Source: a virus. From it: a stretch of 49,214 bases of DNA. Below, in pieces: positions 4,715-49,184 of the stretch (the first letter of the stretch is position 1; each line of letters starts with the position of its first letter). A program made the position numbers and the translations under genes. The notes under the pieces were generated by a model. It was not told the DNA's origin and made no database searches. It was given only the letters and a program-made list of their open reading frames with translations. The DNA is taken from IMG/VR virus record IMGVR_UViG_3300046787_000030, positions 1 to 49,214 of that record; one strand, written 5' to 3'.

Positions 4715-4723
4715 TGTTATACT
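4715..4723 (+). promoter_or_regulatory. Extended -10 promoter for the major tail gene
   Basis: TGTTATACT matches the TGN-TATACT element repeated in this window. It lies in the 74-nt gap before the major tail protein and would give a leader of about 48 nt carrying the GAGGTGA ribosome-binding site near 4763. Confidence 0.55.
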
Positions 4724-4777
4724 TATAACGAGGAAACAACGCCCATTATCCTAATAGAAAAATGAGGTGAAAAAATT

Positions 4778-5431
4778 ATGGCATATACACGTGGTCAAAG
4801 TGCAAACATCATTGTTGGTGCAGCAGCACTTTTTACATATGAGCCAGCTGTAGGAGCAAGCAACCTTTCGGATGCAGACCTCCCAGCACTCGTTGAGGAC
4901 GTATCGTTCAAGGAGACACTCTCCAATGACGCTGACTTCCGTAACGTTGGTTACACGTCTAACGGTCTAGAGATCCAGTTCCAGCCTGACTTCGGTGAAG
5001 TTCAGGTTGACCAGGTTCTTGACGTTGCTAAGCTCTACAAGCAGGGCATGCAGGTTAACCTTAACACTGCATTCGCTGAGGCAACTCTCGAAAACCTACT
5101 CTTCTCTCTAGCTGGTCAGGATTCTGACCTTGGAACCATTGGTTCTGGTTGGGGTGCAGGTAATGCTGCTCTTAACCTTTCCGCTGGTGACATCGGTGAG
5201 TGTCCTGTTGAGCGTGGTCTAGTAGCAGTTGGTCCAGGTACAGGTGACTGTGCTGCATCAGAAGCTATTGAGCGTATCTATGTTGCATACCGTGCACTCT
5301 CCATCGAGAGCGTTACAGTATCTGCAAAGCGTGATGAAGCAACAATGTTTGAGGTGTCTTTCCGACTCCTTCCAAACGACACTGCTTCTTACGGTAAGAT
5401 CGTAGACCGTACTCTCTCTCTTATTTCCTAA
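4778..5431 (+). CDS. Major tail (tube) protein
   Basis: A 217-residue protein with MAYTRGQSANIIVGAAALF at the start, followed by beta-rich segments and a LSNDADFRNVGYTSNGLEIQF motif typical of actinophage tube subunits, and YRALSIESVTVSAKRDEATMF near the end. It polymerises into the tail tube around the tape measure. The gene is monocistronic by signal: its own promoter-like element upstream, a GAGGTGA ribosome-binding site, a strong terminator downstream, and the same high-expression codon preference as the capsid gene. Position just before tail-assembly-chaperone and tape-measure genes fits. Confidence 0.85.
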   Translation: MAYTRGQSANIIVGAAALFTYEPAVGASNLSDADLPALVEDVSFKETLSNDADFRNVGYTSNGLEIQFQPDFGEVQVDQVLDVAKLYKQGMQVNLNTAFAEATLENLLFSLAGQDSDLGTIGSGWGAGNAALNLSAGDIGECPVERGLVAVGPGTGDCAASEAIERIYVAYRALSIESVTVSAKRDEATMFEVSFRLLPNDTASYGKIVDRTLSLIS

Positions 5432-5455
5432 TAAATAAGCGAAGTACACATTGGG

Positions 5456-5493
5456 GCTGCCCAAGCATTAAGTTGCTTGGGCAGCTCTATTTT
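5456..5493 (+). terminator. Strong intrinsic terminator after the tail tube gene
   Basis: A perfect 12-bp stem (GCTGCCCAAGCA at 5456-5467 with TGCTTGGGCAGC at 5474-5485), a 6-nt loop and a T-rich tail (TCTATTTT). It ends tube-gene transcription. Its 3' arm also contains the -35-like TTGCTT of the next promoter. Confidence 0.92.
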
Positions 5494-5501
5494 GCTATAC
5501 T
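5473..5501 (+). promoter_or_regulatory. Promoter inside the terminator; predicted leaderless start
   Basis: TTGCTT (5473-5478), a 17-nt spacer, then TATACT (5496-5501) with TGC just before it. The +1 predicted 7 nt after the hexamer is 5508, exactly the A of the next ATG. No Shine-Dalgarno is present. The -35 lies in the 3' arm of the terminator stem. Confidence 0.7.
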
Positions 5502-5507
5502 GTAGTA

Positions 5508-6227
5508 ATGGCTACCAAAGTATATGATAAGGGCACAGTGAACCTTATCGATGGAACAGAACTAGAGATCATACCACTCAAGATTAAATATCTGCGTGAG
5601 TTTATGACTATGTTTGAGTTTGTAAAGACCGCATCTGATGATGACGAAGCCATGCACTTTTTGGCGGAATGTGCAGCAATCGCAATGAAACAGTTCCACC
5701 CACTTATTAGTACACGTATTGGCGTAGAGGATAACATGGACATGCCAAACGTATACAGGCTTATCGATCTAGCTGCTGGCATTAAGCTTAATCAAGAACG
5801 TAAAGAAGAAGAGACAGTCGCAAAGGATGCAACTGCAAAAGGCCAGACCTGGGAAGATCTAGACCTAGCCAAACTAGAGTCAGAGATATTCCTGGTCGGT
5901 AAGTGGAAAGACTATGCAGAGCTAGAGCTCTCAATGTCTATGCCAGAGATAATCGTCACTCTTGGTTCAAAGAGAGATCTAGATTATGAAGAGAAAAAGT
6001 TTCTTGCTGCGATTCAAGGAGTTGATTTAGACAAAGACTCTGGAAAAACAAATGCATGGGAAGAAATGAAGGCTAGGGTATTCAGTGGTGGAAAGACTGG
6101 AGACCCTAACGATGTGGTAGCATTACAAGGAGCAAATGCAGCTAAGGCTGGTTTTGGTATTGGTATGGGACTTGGATACGAAAACGTCACTGCTTCTGGA
6201 TCACAACCTTTTGGTAAAAACAAATAA
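5508..6227 (+). CDS. Tail assembly chaperone-like protein, long form
   Basis: A 239-residue protein between tube and tape-measure genes, the standard site of tail assembly chaperones, which bind the tape measure while the tube polymerises. Residues ~8-93 are clearly related to the next gene: shared LIDGTE, PLKI, an EC..IAM.Q helix and an EDN.D.P.VY segment. The remaining ~145 residues are an added domain (charged helix at DLDYEEKKFLAAIQGVDL, then a Gly-rich end). In lambda-like phages such long and short forms arise from one gene by programmed frameshift. Here they are separate genes. No ribosome-binding site precedes the ATG; initiation is probably leaderless. Confidence 0.75.
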   Translation: MATKVYDKGTVNLIDGTELEIIPLKIKYLREFMTMFEFVKTASDDDEAMHFLAECAAIAMKQFHPLISTRIGVEDNMDMPNVYRLIDLAAGIKLNQERKEEETVAKDATAKGQTWEDLDLAKLESEIFLVGKWKDYAELELSMSMPEIIVTLGSKRDLDYEEKKFLAAIQGVDLDKDSGKTNAWEEMKARVFSGGKTGDPNDVVALQGANAAKAGFGIGMGLGYENVTASGSQPFGKNK

Positions 6228-6235
6228 AGTCTCTA

Positions 6236-6244
6236 TGTTATAAT
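6236..6244 (+). promoter_or_regulatory. Extended -10 promoter (TGTTATAAT)
   Basis: A perfect TGN-TATAAT element between the two chaperone-like genes. It gives a ~23-nt leader with AGGAGG before the ATG at 6274. No convincing -35 at 16-18 nt. It would allow the short form and the tape measure to be expressed independently of the long form. Confidence 0.6.
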
Positions 6245-6273
6245 TAATTAAAGCCTATTAGGAGGACACTACT

Positions 6274-6588
6274 ATGACTACATCAGTCAGCGAAGCAAAA
6301 AAAATTACACTAATCGATGGAACAGAAATTACTGTAAGACCACTCAAGATCTCACTTCTACGTTTATTTATGAAGAAGTTCGAGGGAATTGCAAAGGTTG
6401 CAGAAGATAACGACAAATCAACAACTGTACTAATGGAATGCGTTCAGATCGCAATGCAGCAGTACGCACCAGAGCTAGCGGCTGACCGTGAGGCACTGGA
6501 AGACAATCTAGACCTACCTACGGTTTACAAGATTGTCGAAGAGGCTTCAGGTGTGAAGCTCGGAGAAGTTGCAAGTCTTCTCAACTAA
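6274..6588 (+). CDS. Tail assembly chaperone-like protein, short form (paralogue)
   Basis: A 104-residue protein homologous to the N-terminal ~90 residues of the preceding gene (KITLIDGTEITVRPLKI against VNLIDGTELEIIPLKI; MECVQIAMQQ against AECAAIAMKQ; EDNLDLPTVYKI against EDNMDMPNVYRL). It ends where the long form continues. It has a good AGGAGG site and its own extended -10 promoter. Inferred role: the gpG-like short chaperone needed in excess during tail assembly. I see no slippery heptamer at its end joining it to another frame. Confidence 0.75.
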   Translation: MTTSVSEAKKITLIDGTEITVRPLKISLLRLFMKKFEGIAKVAEDNDKSTTVLMECVQIAMQQYAPELAADREALEDNLDLPTVYKIVEEASGVKLGEVASLLN

Positions 6589-6606: not shown

Positions 6607-9600
6607 ATGGCTGATATCGAGTCAAATATTGATATTAATATTAATGCTGATCAAGCATTAGCTTCTATCAAGCGACTTCAGGCAGAGATATCAGCCTTTC
6701 ACCAAGCCATGTCGAAGGGCAGTGCTAAGGCCGCCCAGGAAGCTGCACTACTACAGCAGCAGCTCGTAAACTCAATTAATGCTACTGGCAAGTTCTCTGC
6801 AACAATGCAGACTGTATCTACAAGTACAGAATCTTTTACTACAGCACTTGAAAAGAACAAGCTGTCCATGGGGCAGTACTTTAAATATGCCGTTGCGTCA
6901 ACACAGGGTTTTGGCAAGGTATTCCGTACCGAGTTTGACACCATTGAAAAGGTTGCTCGTGAAAGAGTAAAGACCCTACAGACTCAGTACATCAAACTTG
7001 GTAGAGATGCTAACGGAGCCATGAAGGCTATTTCCGTTAGACCTCTTGCTTTAGATATGGAAGACCTTGGTACCAAGGTTGCCATTACAGCACAGAAGCA
7101 ACAGCTATTAAATCAGCTTCTCAAGCAGGGATCTACAAACCTACTTAACTTTGGTAAGAACACTCAGTGGGCTGGCCGTCAGCTCATGGTTGGTTTTACA
7201 GTTCCACTAACAATCTTCGGTGCCACAGCAGCCAGAGAGTTCATGAAGCTAGAAGAGCAGGCAATTAGATTTAAGCGTGTCTACGGCGACAGTATGACTC
7301 CGTCAGATGAAACTGACAAGATGATTCAGCAGATTCGTGACCTATCCTCTGAGTTTACTAAGTATGGCGTATCTGTAGAAAAGACAATGTCTCTTGCAGC
7401 AGATGCAGCTGCAATGGGTAAGCAGGGTGCAGACCTCATTGCCCAGGTAACAGAAGCAAATAAGCTAGCCGTTCTCGGTGGGGTAGACCAGGCAGCAGCA
7501 CTTGAAACTACTACATCACTAACTAACGCATTTGGTGTAGCTGCAGATCAGCTATCTGGAAAGATCAACTTCCTTAACGCAGTTGAAAACCAGACAGTTA
7601 CATCGATTGAAGACTTAACAGAGGCCATACCAAAGGCTGGTCCAGTTGTACAGCAGCTAGGTGGAGACGTAGAAGACCTAGCATTCTTCCTGACAGCAAT
7701 GAAGGAAGGTGGAATCGATGCAGCAGAAGGTGCAAACGCACTAAAGTCTGGTCTTGCTTCGATGATTAATCCAACAAAGGAAGCTACAGATCAGCTCGGT
7801 AGCATGGGGATTAACCTTAAGGCTATTGTTGATAACAACGCTGGCAATGTAAAGAACATGGTTACTGGTCTAGCAACAGAGCTAGACACCCTAACAAGCA
7901 TTGACAGAGCAAAGGCAATTGAGACACTCTTCGGTAAGTTCCAGTTCGCACGTATGTCAACACTATTCCAAAACGTAATTGCAGAGGGTAGCCAAGCATC
8001 AAGAGTTCTAGAACTAACTAATGCATCAACACAAGAACTAGCTATTCTAGCTGAGCGAGAAATGAAGAGAATTGAAGATTCTCCAATGTATAAGTTCCAG
8101 AAGGTCATGGAAGATCTGAAGGCAACGTTGGCACCAATTGGTGAGGCATTCCTTAAGGCTGTTACTCCAATTATTGAATGGGGTAGCGGTGTTCTAAAGT
8201 CATTCAACAATATGGGTGAAGGTGCCAAGCAGTTCCTAACCATTGCTGTAGCAGCTATTGCAGGTCTAGGTCCAGTGCTTCTAATGACATTTGGTCTTAT
8301 GGCTAACGGTATCGCTAACATCATTAAGATGTTTGGTGTGATGGGTGGCCTCTTTGGAAAGCTAAGCGGTCAGTCAACTACCCTTGGTCTAGATACTCAG
8401 TACATGACACAAGAGCAGCTAGAGGCTGCAGCTGTAGCGTCATCACTCAACCAGACACACCAAAGCTTAGTTCAAACATTCACATCTGAGGCAACTGCCG
8501 TAAATGCTCTTGCTGGTGCATATAGAAATGCAGCTGTTGCAATTCAGGGCGTACAGCGTCCAATGATGCCTGCTGCTCCAATGCCAGGTGCTGGTGGAAC
8601 AAAGAAGTACGCCAACGGTGTTTATTCTGTTCCTGGTCCAAAGGGTGCTGGTGACATTGTTCCTGCCATGCTTGCTCCTGGAGAAGCAGTCATCCCTGCA
8701 GATAAGGCAGATAAGTATCGTGGATTAATCCAGGGTATCATTGGTGGAAAGATTCCAGGATTTGCAGAGGGCGAAGTAAAGGTAAATGCTCCAAAGGGTG
8801 CAGGATTCAATCAGTCGCACTTCTCTGGCTCAAGTAGAATGACTGGGCAGGAGTTGTTGGATTGGTCGGCAACACAGCCAGAAAGCGTTCAGATAAAGCT
8901 TCGTAAAAAATTAGATGATCAGCTGAAATACTTTGCTAATGAGCAAGAGATGCTTGCGTATGAGTTCCAGACATATACAAATGAAGTTGTTAACATGTCT
9001 GCAGATATCAATAATAGACTTGGTCAGAGTAGCACTGGGAATGAAAAGGCTGTAGTCCCAGCTGGAGAGATAAAGGCAGATTTTTCTAGAACTAGAGAGC
9101 AGGCACATGGTGAGGCAGCCAGACTTATGGAAGAGGCTGGAGTACCAGCTGACAGAATTAAGCAGGTACTAGGACAGCTTGCAGATGAGATTGATTCAGG
9201 TCTCACCGCATTTGGTGATGAAGTTGAAATGACTGGCGATGACCTCGATGCTGTTATATCGTCAGCGTACGATAGAGTGCAGGCCACCAGTTCAGAGCTT
9301 GACGCAGCTCGAACAAAGATGGGAAAAACTAGTGGATTCTTGAGTGCTAGACCTGGACATAATACAAGAGTTGGAGTAACAACAGACGAATCTCCTACCA
9401 CGTTCTATCAAGACAGAAGAGAAGAAAATAAGGCAGCAGCTGAGAGGTACTCCGATAGAACTCCAGTTTTTGCCGACAAGGCTTCCATCAACTTTGCTGG
9501 ATCTCAGGCAAGACAAGACAAACAATTATTCCAGGACCTAGCAGAGGTTGATAGACAAGCAGCGATAGATATTGTTAATGCACAAAAAGAAGATAGAGTT

Positions 9601-25156: not shown

Positions 25157-26369
25157 TACAGAATCAAAGCTGATTTCAGCAGTACTAGAGGATAAGCAAG
25201 TCCATGTTTTGCTACAGGCAAACGTAGACAACATTCTACGTACCCATAATGATATCTGGACGTTTATCCGTAACTACTTTGAGCAGAACGGATCAACTCC
25301 ACCAACTGCACTCGTTGTGGATAAGTTCCGTGACTTTGAGCCAGTAGCTGGGGTGGGTGCAACTAAGCACCACCTAGATGAACTACAGGCTGAATTCATG
25401 AACGATAGCCTTAAGGACATTCTACGAACCACTGCGTCTGAGGTTCAGGATGGCAAGGCACCAGAAGCACTTGAACACCTTATCTCAAAGACATCAGAAC
25501 TAAAGAAGAACGCTGCGGTAATTCGTGATATCGATGTAACAGACATTGACTCTGCAGTTGCCTACTACGAGAACGTAAAGAAGCAGATGGCTGCTGGATC
25601 AGTTGGTATCAAGACTGGCCTTCCAGGGTTTGATAACTACCTCCCTGCTGGAATTACTCCAGGACAGCTAGGCGTATTCTTGGCATACCCAGGTATTGGT
25701 AAGTCTTGGCTATCGCTTTATTTTGCGGTACAGGCATGGAAACAGGGACGATCACCACTAGTAATCAGCCTTGAAATGAGTGAGACAGAAGTCCGTAACC
25801 GTGTATATACAATCATGGGTGAAGGTCTGTGGTCACACCGTAAGCTGTCTTCTGGTGAGGTAGAGCTAGATACATTGCGTATGTGGCACAAGAAGCACCT
25901 TGAGGGCAAGCCAGAGTTCCATATTATCTCTAACGATGGTGGTGGAGAAGTTACCCCATCTGTAATTCGTGGTAAGATCGATCAGTACAAGCCAGACCTT
26001 GTTATTGTTGACTACTTGCAGCTTATGTCTCCTAATACTAAGTCTGATAGCGAAGTTGTTCGTATGAAGAATCTATCTCGTGAGCTTAAGCTTCTGGCAA
26101 TTGGTGACGAGATTCCTATTCTTGCAATTTCATCTGCAACACCAGATGACGTTAACAAACTAGATACTGTTCCAACACTTGGACAGACTTCTTGGTCACG
26201 CCAGATTGCATACGATGCTGACTGGGTAATGGCACTTGGACGTGGTACAAACTCTGATATTATTGAGTGCGTATTCCGAAAGAACCGTAATGGTTTCATG
26301 GGTGAATTCTTAGTCCAGGTAGACTTCGATAAAGGTTTCTACAAGTACAAAGATTATGAAGATAACTAG
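25149..26369 (+). CDS. dnaB: DnaB-like replicative helicase
   Basis: A 406-residue RecA-fold helicase with GTG start overlapping the previous gene. It unwinds the fork during phage replication. The Walker A is AYPGIGKS at residues 179-186, a variant of the usual GRPSMGKT. Walker B is in DLVIVDYLQLM. The DnaB-type LVISLEMSETEVRNRV helix, an arginine-finger region and a QTSWSRQIAYDADWVMALGR segment are present. The N-terminal ~125 residues resemble a reduced DnaB N-terminal domain. It is followed by a primase, so helicase and primase probably work together. Confidence 0.9.
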   Translation: MSNTESKLISAVLEDKQVHVLLQANVDNILRTHNDIWTFIRNYFEQNGSTPPTALVVDKFRDFEPVAGVGATKHHLDELQAEFMNDSLKDILRTTASEVQDGKAPEALEHLISKTSELKKNAAVIRDIDVTDIDSAVAYYENVKKQMAAGSVGIKTGLPGFDNYLPAGITPGQLGVFLAYPGIGKSWLSLYFAVQAWKQGRSPLVISLEMSETEVRNRVYTIMGEGLWSHRKLSSGEVELDTLRMWHKKHLEGKPEFHIISNDGGGEVTPSVIRGKIDQYKPDLVIVDYLQLMSPNTKSDSEVVRMKNLSRELKLLAIGDEIPILAISSATPDDVNKLDTVPTLGQTSWSRQIAYDADWVMALGRGTNSDIIECVFRKNRNGFMGEFLVQVDFDKGFYKYKDYEDN

Positions 26370-26375
26370 TATAAT
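26370..26375 (+). promoter_or_regulatory. -10 element TATAAT, predicted leaderless start
   Basis: A consensus TATAAT begins immediately after the helicase stop codon. Its last base is 7 nt before the ATG at 26382, so the predicted +1 is the start codon. There is no Shine-Dalgarno. The -35 region is weak and there is no TGN extension. Confidence 0.55.
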
Positions 26376-26381
26376 TAAAGC

Positions 26382-26726
26382 ATGGACGCTTTTCATCATA
26401 AACCACTTAAAAAGTTTAGCCTCGATGGAAACATTCATGACGACTCAGCAATCTGGAGACTTAAGACTGAATACATAGGTCTTCTAACTACAGAAATGAG
26501 ATTGTCTGGATACGTGCCAAGACTTGACATCAATGCAGACTTTACAATAGAATACAATGAACAGAAACAACACTTTACATTTGAGTTATCATTATATGGA
26601 ATATACGTAGGAAAGAGAAAGAGCGAATGGATTACAGGGATAGACGAAACAAAAGTAATATATACACAGAAGAACAAGTCAAGCGAGTCCTCGCAGGATC
26701 TGGAATCACCGTCGAATCTGAAGTAG
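26382..26726 (+). CDS. Hypothetical protein overlapping the primase gene
   Basis: A 114-residue protein between helicase and primase. It has a beta-rich core (FTIEYNEQKQHFTFELSLYG, ending IYVGKRKSEWITG), and its last ~33 codons overlap the primase start in another frame (26627-26726). The overlapping tail is low-complexity Ser/Lys/Asn, so the folded part probably ends before it. Initiation is likely leaderless. Conserved placement would suggest a replisome accessory; no known domain. Confidence 0.6.
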   Translation: MDAFHHKPLKKFSLDGNIHDDSAIWRLKTEYIGLLTTEMRLSGYVPRLDINADFTIEYNEQKQHFTFELSLYGIYVGKRKSEWITGIDETKVIYTQKNKSSESSQDLESPSNLK

Positions 26727-43729: not shown

Positions 43730-43759
43730 TTGACAAACAGTTTCGACTGTGAGTATAAT
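43730..43759 (+). promoter_or_regulatory. Near-consensus sigma-70 promoter of the tRNA cluster
   Basis: TTGACA (43730-43735), an 18-nt spacer, TATAAT (43754-43759). This is the best -35/-10 pair in the window. Predicted +1 is 43766, 99 nt before the first tRNA. It fits host-type transcription of a stable RNA operon. Confidence 0.9.
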
Positions 43760-45664: not shown

Positions 45665-46087
45665 ATGGAATACTTTATCGGTGCTGCTGTAACGCTAGCT
45701 ATTGTTTATTTTGTTAATAGATTTATTTCTGTGCGTGCAGAAGAGCAAGAAGAGATGCCACTGGTTTATACGCAAAGTTATGTGTATGAACTGATACGAC
45801 CTTTTGTCTCAATCTATGGATACGTCACAGAAGAAAAGCAAACCCAGGCAACAAAGCACTTCAATAATCTATTTATTAAAATAGTTTTTACAGAAGATAA
45901 AGCATACTGGATCGAAGATACAACATTCTATGTTGCAGATCTAAGCGAAGATGGCCTTGTGCAAAAAGATACAGCCAAACAGGTTGACACAATGTCCATG
46001 AGTAAGGTAGAATTAGACGACATAAAAGTTATTGTAGAAAAGTTAACGGAGGGAACAGGCAATGATAGTTGGAATGCAGGGAAGTAA
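45665..46087 (+). CDS. Single-pass membrane protein, unknown
   Basis: A 140-residue protein. Residues 4-23 (FIGAAVTLAIVYFVNRFISV) form one N-terminal membrane helix, followed by an acidic soluble domain of about 110 residues with beta segments (KAYWIEDTTFYVADLSEDGL). No catalytic motif. Could be a membrane-anchored accessory or exclusion factor. The end overlaps the next gene by 26 nt. Confidence 0.6.
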   Translation: MEYFIGAAVTLAIVYFVNRFISVRAEEQEEMPLVYTQSYVYELIRPFVSIYGYVTEEKQTQATKHFNNLFIKIVFTEDKAYWIEDTTFYVADLSEDGLVQKDTAKQVDTMSMSKVELDDIKVIVEKLTEGTGNDSWNAGK

Positions 46088-48434: not shown

Positions 48435-48443
48435 TGATATAAT
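48435..48443 (+). promoter_or_regulatory. Extended -10 promoter (TGATATAAT), predicted leaderless start
   Basis: TGATATAAT with its last base exactly 7 nt before the ATG at 48450. No Shine-Dalgarno. This is the most consensus-like member of the repeated element. It would start transcription of the head module. Confidence 0.7.
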
Positions 48444-48449
48444 GATCTT

Positions 48450-49184
48450 ATGCCATATCACGTAGGTAAAAAAGGTTCATACGGTTGCTCAGGTTTTGCA
48501 GCTGTAAAAGACGACGGCACCGTAATGGGTTGCCACAAGACACGTTCTGCAGCAGCAGGACAGATTTATGCTATTAATCGTAGTGAAGGAAATATAGGTA
48601 AAGTTATGATCACTGAAGGTGACTTTGTAATGTTTAAGTGCGAAGACGAGACATACGTCGGACGCATTGAGTACGTAATGACAACTGAAGGCACTCTCGG
48701 ACTTAAGGGTTCAGAGTACGCAGTAGAGTCTATGCCAGACGACTACGCAGTCTTGATTCGTATCTACGAAGAAGAAGATGGTGTCTGGGAAGAAGAAGAT
48801 AAGCTTATGTCTAGAAACATGTCAGAGCTTACTAAGATTGCATCCCTCAAGGTTGAGGTGGATGTAGAGGTAGAAATGATGAGCTCACAAGATGGGTCTC
48901 CTGCCATGACAATGGTAACAGAGGATGACATGACAGAGCTTGGTAAGCGTGCTGGTGGAAAGATGCCATCCTCAATGGGCCAGCCAGCCGATGCGTCACA
49001 GGGACAGTCAGCAATCAAGGATCCAAAGGTTAAGCCAAAGAAGTCTATTGGTGGAGTTGGTACTGCTGGTATTGGTGTAGCTAAGTCTGATGAAGAGCTC
49101 CCAGACTCAGAGCTATTTTCTGGTTTTGGTAAAGACTTTACACGTGTGGATCGTCGCACTGAAGTATTCCTTCCAAAGGATTAA
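48450..49184 (+). CDS. Prohead-protease-associated protein (N-terminal domain plus SH3-like domain)
   Basis: A 244-residue protein. The N-terminal ~45 residues (YHVGKKGSYGCSGFAAVKDD; VMGCHKTRSAAAGQIYAINR) match a small domain often found at the N-terminus of capsid maturation proteases. The next ~75 residues (GDFVMFKCEDETYVGRIEYV; DDYAVLIRIYEEEDGVWEEE, then a SELTKI ending) are a barrel domain that is also usually fused to such proteases. No protease catalytic motif is in this ORF. The low-complexity C-terminus ends PKD. It probably works with the next gene in head maturation. Confidence 0.65.
   Translation: MPYHVGKKGSYGCSGFAAVKDDGTVMGCHKTRSAAAGQIYAINRSEGNIGKVMITEGDFVMFKCEDETYVGRIEYVMTTEGTLGLKGSEYAVESMPDDYAVLIRIYEEEDGVWEEEDKLMSRNMSELTKIASLKVEVDVEVEMMSSQDGSPAMTMVTEDDMTELGKRAGGKMPSSMGQPADASQGQSAIKDPKVKPKKSIGGVGTAGIGVAKSDEELPDSELFSGFGKDFTRVDRRTEVFLPKD

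Follow-up and report, generated by a model that had tools for sequence, protein, structure and literature searches.

A terminator hairpin adjoining a predicted leaderless extended −10 promoter at the tail chaperone junction of a virus related to Streptomyces and Rhodococcus phages

The junction between the major tail and chaperone genes

The sequence analysed here (the window) is a 49-kb IMG/VR virus record, IMGVR_UViG_3300046787_000030, of 49,214 nucleotides (nt), and the element in question is the segment at 5452–5509 between its tail-tube gene and its tail assembly chaperone gene, in which a hairpin, a U-tract, an extended −10 promoter element and an ATG follow one another. The upstream gene (4778–5431) encodes the major tail (tube) protein, as indicated by a match to PHROG 2175 (E 6e-30), a weak match to PHROG 885 (major tail protein) and ~45% identity of its product to annotated Streptomyces phage major tail proteins. 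The downstream gene (5508–6227, 239 amino acids (aa)) was assigned both by homology, as tblastn gives 35–45% identity to tail assembly chaperones annotated in Streptomyces phages, and by its position, with the major tail gene on one side and the tape measure gene on the other. Both genes and all elements of the junction lie on the + strand.

The hairpin comprises 16 pairs (5452–5489), with a perfect core of 12 base pairs (bp) (5456–5467 with 5474–5485, closing a 6-nt loop at 5468–5473) and four added pairs that include two G-U. It adjoins the U-tract TTTT (5490–5493), from which an RNA 3′ end at ~5493–5498 is predicted. Bases 5493–5495 are TGC and precede the hexamer TATACT (5496–5501), making TGC-TATACT (5493–5501) a site of the TGn plus TAnnnT form that defines an extended −10 promoter. 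Six nt separate TATACT from the chaperone ATG (5508–5510), whose A is the predicted +1 of a leaderless mRNA. The initial annotation had described a −35/−10 promoter here, with TTGCTT (5473–5478) as its −35 and a 17-nt spacer (5479–5495) before TATACT. A direct check of the sequence confirmed these positions and bases, along with ATG 5508 and the perfect 12-bp stem. The placement of TTGCTT in the 3′ arm of that stem holds for its last five bases, while the first T (5473) sits in the loop. The TGC before the hexamer, and with it the extended −10 character of the site, had been overlooked, and a promoter scan omitted TGC-TATACT because its −35 matches the consensus at only 3/6 positions.

The isolates nearest to the window virus are Streptomyces phages of the Stanwilliamsviridae and some phages of Rhodococcus, and on this basis the host is likely an actinobacterium. 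A search of bacterial genomes that used the major tail protein as query gave one weak match, at 37% over 60 residues, to an uncultured Caldiserica bin, which is uninformative on the host. No Rfam family lay over the junction element, the only Rfam matches being tRNAs.

Conservation of the hairpin, the promoter and the start codon

Three scans recovered 240 related IMG/VR loci, referred to here as the metagenomic clade, which together with the window gave 241 junctions; their upstream regions comprise 125 distinct sequences, which fall into 65 clusters at 85% identity. The hairpin has the features of an intrinsic terminator, being stable, G+C-rich and adjoined by a U-rich tract (TTTT in the window, T-rich tails in relatives). 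In the window, the intergenic RNA has a folding energy of −35.7 kcal/mol (z = −5.2), a stability equalled by 0 of 200 shuffles, and the junction hairpin ranks strongest of 19 terminator-like matches in 15 kb. A hairpin with at least 6 pairs is found in all 65 clusters (median z −4.9, all below −2). When 29 hairpins with 4-base loops were aligned, 95.6% of cells were paired and 10 of 11 pairs had changed on both sides; sliding the partner by one column lowered pairing to ~53%. Because this covariation is lost on sliding, the alignment indicates that the hairpin is maintained by selection on pairing, and a mere chance hairpin is ruled out by its presence in 65/65 clusters, the fold z-score and the covariation.

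The position of the promoter is similarly conserved. A canonical −10 hexamer lies 6–9 nt before the start codon in 124 of the 125 distinct sequences, with the exception carrying TAGAGT. Measured from the best −10 in each of the 65 clusters, the gap to the start is 6 nt in 35, 7 nt in 4, 8 nt in 8 and 9 nt in 18. TG stands one base before the −10 in 61 of the 65, a count that may be slightly inflated by the bonus of 1 that the −10 anchoring score gives for TG. A control using the same strict motif found it at 6–9 nt in none of 405 other open reading frame (ORF) starts of the same loci, as against 39 of 39 chaperone starts, these being called as first-in-frame starts.

No Shine-Dalgarno (SD) sequence was found at the chaperone start in any of the 65 clusters, the duplex with the anti-SD never being −4 kcal/mol or lower. 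The window's chaperone start likewise has no SD, with a duplex energy of +0.9 kcal/mol compared with a median of −6.0 kcal/mol for window genes and −6 to −10 kcal/mol for Streptomyces-type relatives. A −10 spaced such that +1 coincides with the start codon, together with a missing SD, is what is expected of a leaderless gene. Leaderless translation prefers AUG, and the dominance of ATG in the metagenomic clade, where it is the start in 240 of 241 junctions as opposed to GTG or TTG in 10 of 11 Streptomyces-type loci, is consistent with it.

The chaperone N-terminus follows the pattern M-[AP]-T-x-x-Y, in which M1, T3 and Y6 are invariant and A2 is nearly so, in leadered and leaderless phages alike. 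Because these residues are conserved across both kinds of phage, the comparison identifies 5508 as the correct chaperone start rather than a GTG downstream. The candidate considered was GTG 5538, which has an SD-like AAGGG; it was ruled out, as the M-A-T-x-x-Y residues that precede it are conserved in relatives.

The comparison among relatives thus shows that the arrangement is conserved, with a covarying hairpin, an extended −10 at fixed spacing and no SD. It also supports the earlier proposal that a terminator after the tail-tube gene is fused to the chaperone promoter. The two appear to overlap through the U-tract and the extended −10, and not, as had been suggested, through a −35 in the stem. 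As for a +1 at the A of the ATG with no 5′ untranslated region, the comparison supports a start at the ATG or within ~3 nt of it.

A stop-and-restart junction and its alternatives

We consider it likely that the segment acts as a compact stop-and-restart junction, at which the tail-tube mRNA would be terminated and an extended −10 promoter would start a leaderless chaperone mRNA at or near the ATG. In the order of events that we infer, RNA polymerase that has transcribed the major tail protein gene would make the hairpin and U-tract and release its RNA at ~5493–5498. The U-tract would run directly into an extended −10 promoter that would work without a −35, and this promoter would start a new mRNA at 5508 (0–3 nt from the start codon in relatives). 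The chaperone mRNA would then be translated with neither leader nor SD, as is common in actinobacteria. The purpose may be one of dosage: the very abundant tail-tube mRNA would not extend into the chaperone and tape-measure genes, and these would be given their own, probably lower, supply.

Several points weigh against this reading. The U-tract of the window is short, with TTTT followed by GC. The 9-nt gap in 18 of the 65 clusters would permit a leader of up to ~3 nt there. The clusters share ancestry, and their counts describe conservation, not independent trials. Finally, use of leaderless mRNA by the host is deduced from the relatedness of the virus to Streptomyces and Rhodococcus phages.

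The site could instead be an ordinary −35/−10 promoter, with TTGCTT as a −35 within the stem and the hairpin still serving as terminator. TTGCTT is correctly spaced at 17 nt, and in one subset of relatives, in which the promoter is further from the hairpin, TTGTNT-like hexamers read by eye occur ~17 nt upstream. However, no conserved −35 hexamer of the sigma-70 −35/−10 model was found: TTGCTT matches the consensus at 3/6 positions and is not retained in the relatives of the window, and the match to TTGACA at spacers of 16–18 over the 65 clusters averages 2.12/6, compared with 2.32 (sd 0.10) in shuffles and similar values at displaced positions. It is the TG of the extended −10 that is nearly invariant instead. 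The absent enrichment rules out a −35 in the stem as a conserved element, and what the relatives conserve is an extended −10, not a −35/−10 pair. We therefore regard a conventional promoter with TTGCTT as its −35, the form in which the site was initially annotated, as very unlikely.

We give equally little credence to the hairpin being an RNA-processing or 3′-end-stabilising element, with the chaperone translated from a read-through mRNA covering both genes. Hairpins can serve both roles, and the two genes are co-directional and close, but read-through leaves the fixed-spacing extended −10 unexplained, T-rich tracts lie 3′ of the hairpins, and the chaperone is without an SD in 65/65 clusters whereas leadered relatives have one. 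A real promoter followed by a leader of 1–3 nt, such that translation is not strictly leaderless, is somewhat less improbable, although still unlikely; the clusters with a 9-nt gap speak for it, while the 6-nt gap of 35 clusters and the window is the usual discriminator length that puts +1 at the A of the ATG. In Lactococcus, leaders of 4–14 nt are absent (PMC10986495), suggesting that very short leaders act like none. That the whole arrangement reflects chance, an AT-rich gap with TATACT happening to fall near an ATG, is hardly credible: AT-rich DNA often contains single −10-like hexamers, and the promoter-like sites of the scan are near the shuffled expectation, but the spacing and TG are conserved over 125 distinct sequences and absent from the 405 control starts, in contradiction to chance.

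Within the stop-and-restart junction, a terminating polymerase would cover the promoter, and for this reason interference or recycling between the tail-tube and chaperone units is plausible. In the stronger form of this idea, polymerase would stay on the DNA after release of the tail-tube RNA and be captured by the extended −10 at the termination point, so that chaperone transcription would be coupled to tail-tube transcription, not independent of it. That the junction is a selected restart site for recycled polymerase, with the same holding after the capsid gene (see below), seems to us a rather doubtful proposition.

Leadered and leaderless versions in Streptomyces and Rhodococcus phages

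The corresponding gap of seven annotated Streptomyces isolates contains a terminator hairpin, a −10-like element and then a leader with an SD. Coruscant, Yaboi and Mildred21 have an extended −10 at this point (TGATATAAT or TGCTATAAT), and the other four have weaker or longer-spaced elements. The tail junctions of Stanwilliamsviridae (BillNye, Coruscant, Yaboi and others) share with the window a hairpin between the genes for the major tail protein and the chaperone, in most cases with an extended −10 after it. They differ in that the promoter stands apart from the hairpin, the leader has a strong SD and the start is often GTG or TTG.

Among the Rhodococcus phages, Trina and NiceHouse have a leadered junction, whereas Dorin and Francesca have a hairpin, TGTTAGTAT, 7 nt and then an ATG. 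In Dorin (locus L263, ~2257–2284) and Francesca (locus L268), the annotated GTG start of the chaperone gene lies inside the terminator stem. This start is likely misannotated, and a leaderless ATG 27 nt downstream of the annotated GTG is the candidate in its place. Dorin and Francesca probably represent a second leaderless version, separate from the metagenomic clade: in a tree of the major tail protein the two leaderless groups stand apart, and therefore two changes of leader state are needed, with long branches and an unsettled root leaving their direction undecided. A search for viral relatives of the Rhodococcus chaperone found none.

Similar sites elsewhere in the window

A comparable arrangement follows the major capsid gene of the window, where a 17-pair terminator hairpin (1713–1752, + strand; fold −30.3 kcal/mol), with the same layout in relatives, is followed by the extended −10 TGA-TAATAT (1762–1770, + strand), which would feed a leadered gene. 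That gene probably starts at 1787, which has an SD, and not at the first ATG, 1757. The combination of capsid hairpin and extended −10 is kept in many relatives, with leader and SD (22 of 35 distinct sequences under a strict pattern).

A −10 at 6–9 nt from the start occurs in four SD-less genes of the window (5508, 23642, 26382 and 48450) and in none of its SD-bearing genes (Fisher p 5e-4). At 26368–26384, TATAAT lies 6 nt before ATG 26382 (phrog_17515), and the layout recurs at 5–6 nt in four relatives; this gene is a probable second leaderless gene. At 48435–48450, downstream of an Hsp20-like gene, TGATATAAT lies 6 nt before ATG 48450; one relative has a leaderless version of this gene and others have leadered ones. 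Near-perfect TTGACA/TATAAT-type promoters without TG occur at 43730–43759 and 45984–46013 (12/12 and 11/12 matches, respectively), one of which precedes the tRNA cluster; the extended −10 sites in front of virion genes, by contrast, lack a −35. The two kinds of site may reflect different promoter classes.

Two neighbouring genes, both on the + strand, have extended −10 promoters of their own on that strand. The major tail protein promoter, TGT-TATACT (4715–4723), has a 54-nt leader and is conserved in relatives. Just 3′ of its predicted transcription start is a box, GAGGAAACAACGCC, at 4730–4743, which nearly all metagenomic relatives keep as TGAGGAAACA(n)CGCC, the form in Streptomyces relatives being GAGGAAGTGCCTAGCC. 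A coding upstream ORF is not favoured as an explanation of this box, given indels of 1–4 nt among relatives. Downstream of the chaperone gene is a second, paralogous chaperone gene (6274–6588, 104 aa), which matches PHROG 10504, as does the 5508 gene. It is preceded by TGT-TATAAT (6236–6244) and a leader with the SD AGGAGG (6260–6265), and the tape measure gene comes next, at 6607. Two tandem paralogous chaperone genes are therefore present in the window in place of the frameshifted pair annotated in several isolated relatives; a programmed frameshift is annotated in Yaboi, Dorin and NiceHouse, whereas the 5508 gene is a single 239-aa ORF followed by its paralog.

Relation to known systems and implications

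A TANNNT motif ~12 nt before the start marks leaderless genes, in which Actinobacteria are rich (PMC3160421), and promoters of Mycobacterium tuberculosis show no −35 consensus while TGN raises their activity (PMC3898074). The stop-and-restart reading agrees with both sets of signatures: the junction shares with actinobacterial leaderless genes a −10 at 6–9 nt from the start, the absence of an SD, an ATG start and the lack of a −35 consensus. It differs from M. tuberculosis in that an extended −10 is found in nearly all members, compared with 7% of TANNNT promoters, and in that its −10 abuts the terminator of the preceding gene. In Cluster O mycobacteriophages such as Corndog, leaderless promoters have likewise been predicted, and a terminator-like stem-loop immediately follows the gene for the major tail subunit (PMC4351075). 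In Corndog these are described as lying separately, at different places, whereas in the window they are fused in one segment that is conserved in a large clade.

The lambda cI transcript from PRM is the classical leaderless phage mRNA, starting at its AUG; it differs from the junction in serving a regulator gene, not a structural junction, and in having no fused terminator. It has been cited as the first example of a leaderless mRNA (PMC3160421). Recycling of RNA polymerase after intrinsic termination (PMC6978380, PMC6978322) shares with the junction a promoter close downstream of a terminator, at which restart after termination is possible; these observations were made in vitro with E. coli.

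Each element of the junction is known in itself, and what appears to be new is that a terminator and a leaderless extended −10 promoter are fused and that a large phage clade has kept this fusion. The literature searched, coverage of which was incomplete, yielded no account of such a fusion within one conserved segment, nor a published transcript map of a close relative. The comparison corrects gene starts, those of the Dorin and Francesca chaperones and probably that of the window gene from 1757 to 1787. The leaderless clade and its leadered sister phages provide natural sequences for testing how translation of a gene switches between leadered and leaderless modes, and the junction makes it testable in living cells whether RNA polymerase, once released at a terminator, restarts at the promoter next to it. 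For the phages themselves, the junction suggests how abundant virion proteins and the helpers of their assembly may be supplied differently.
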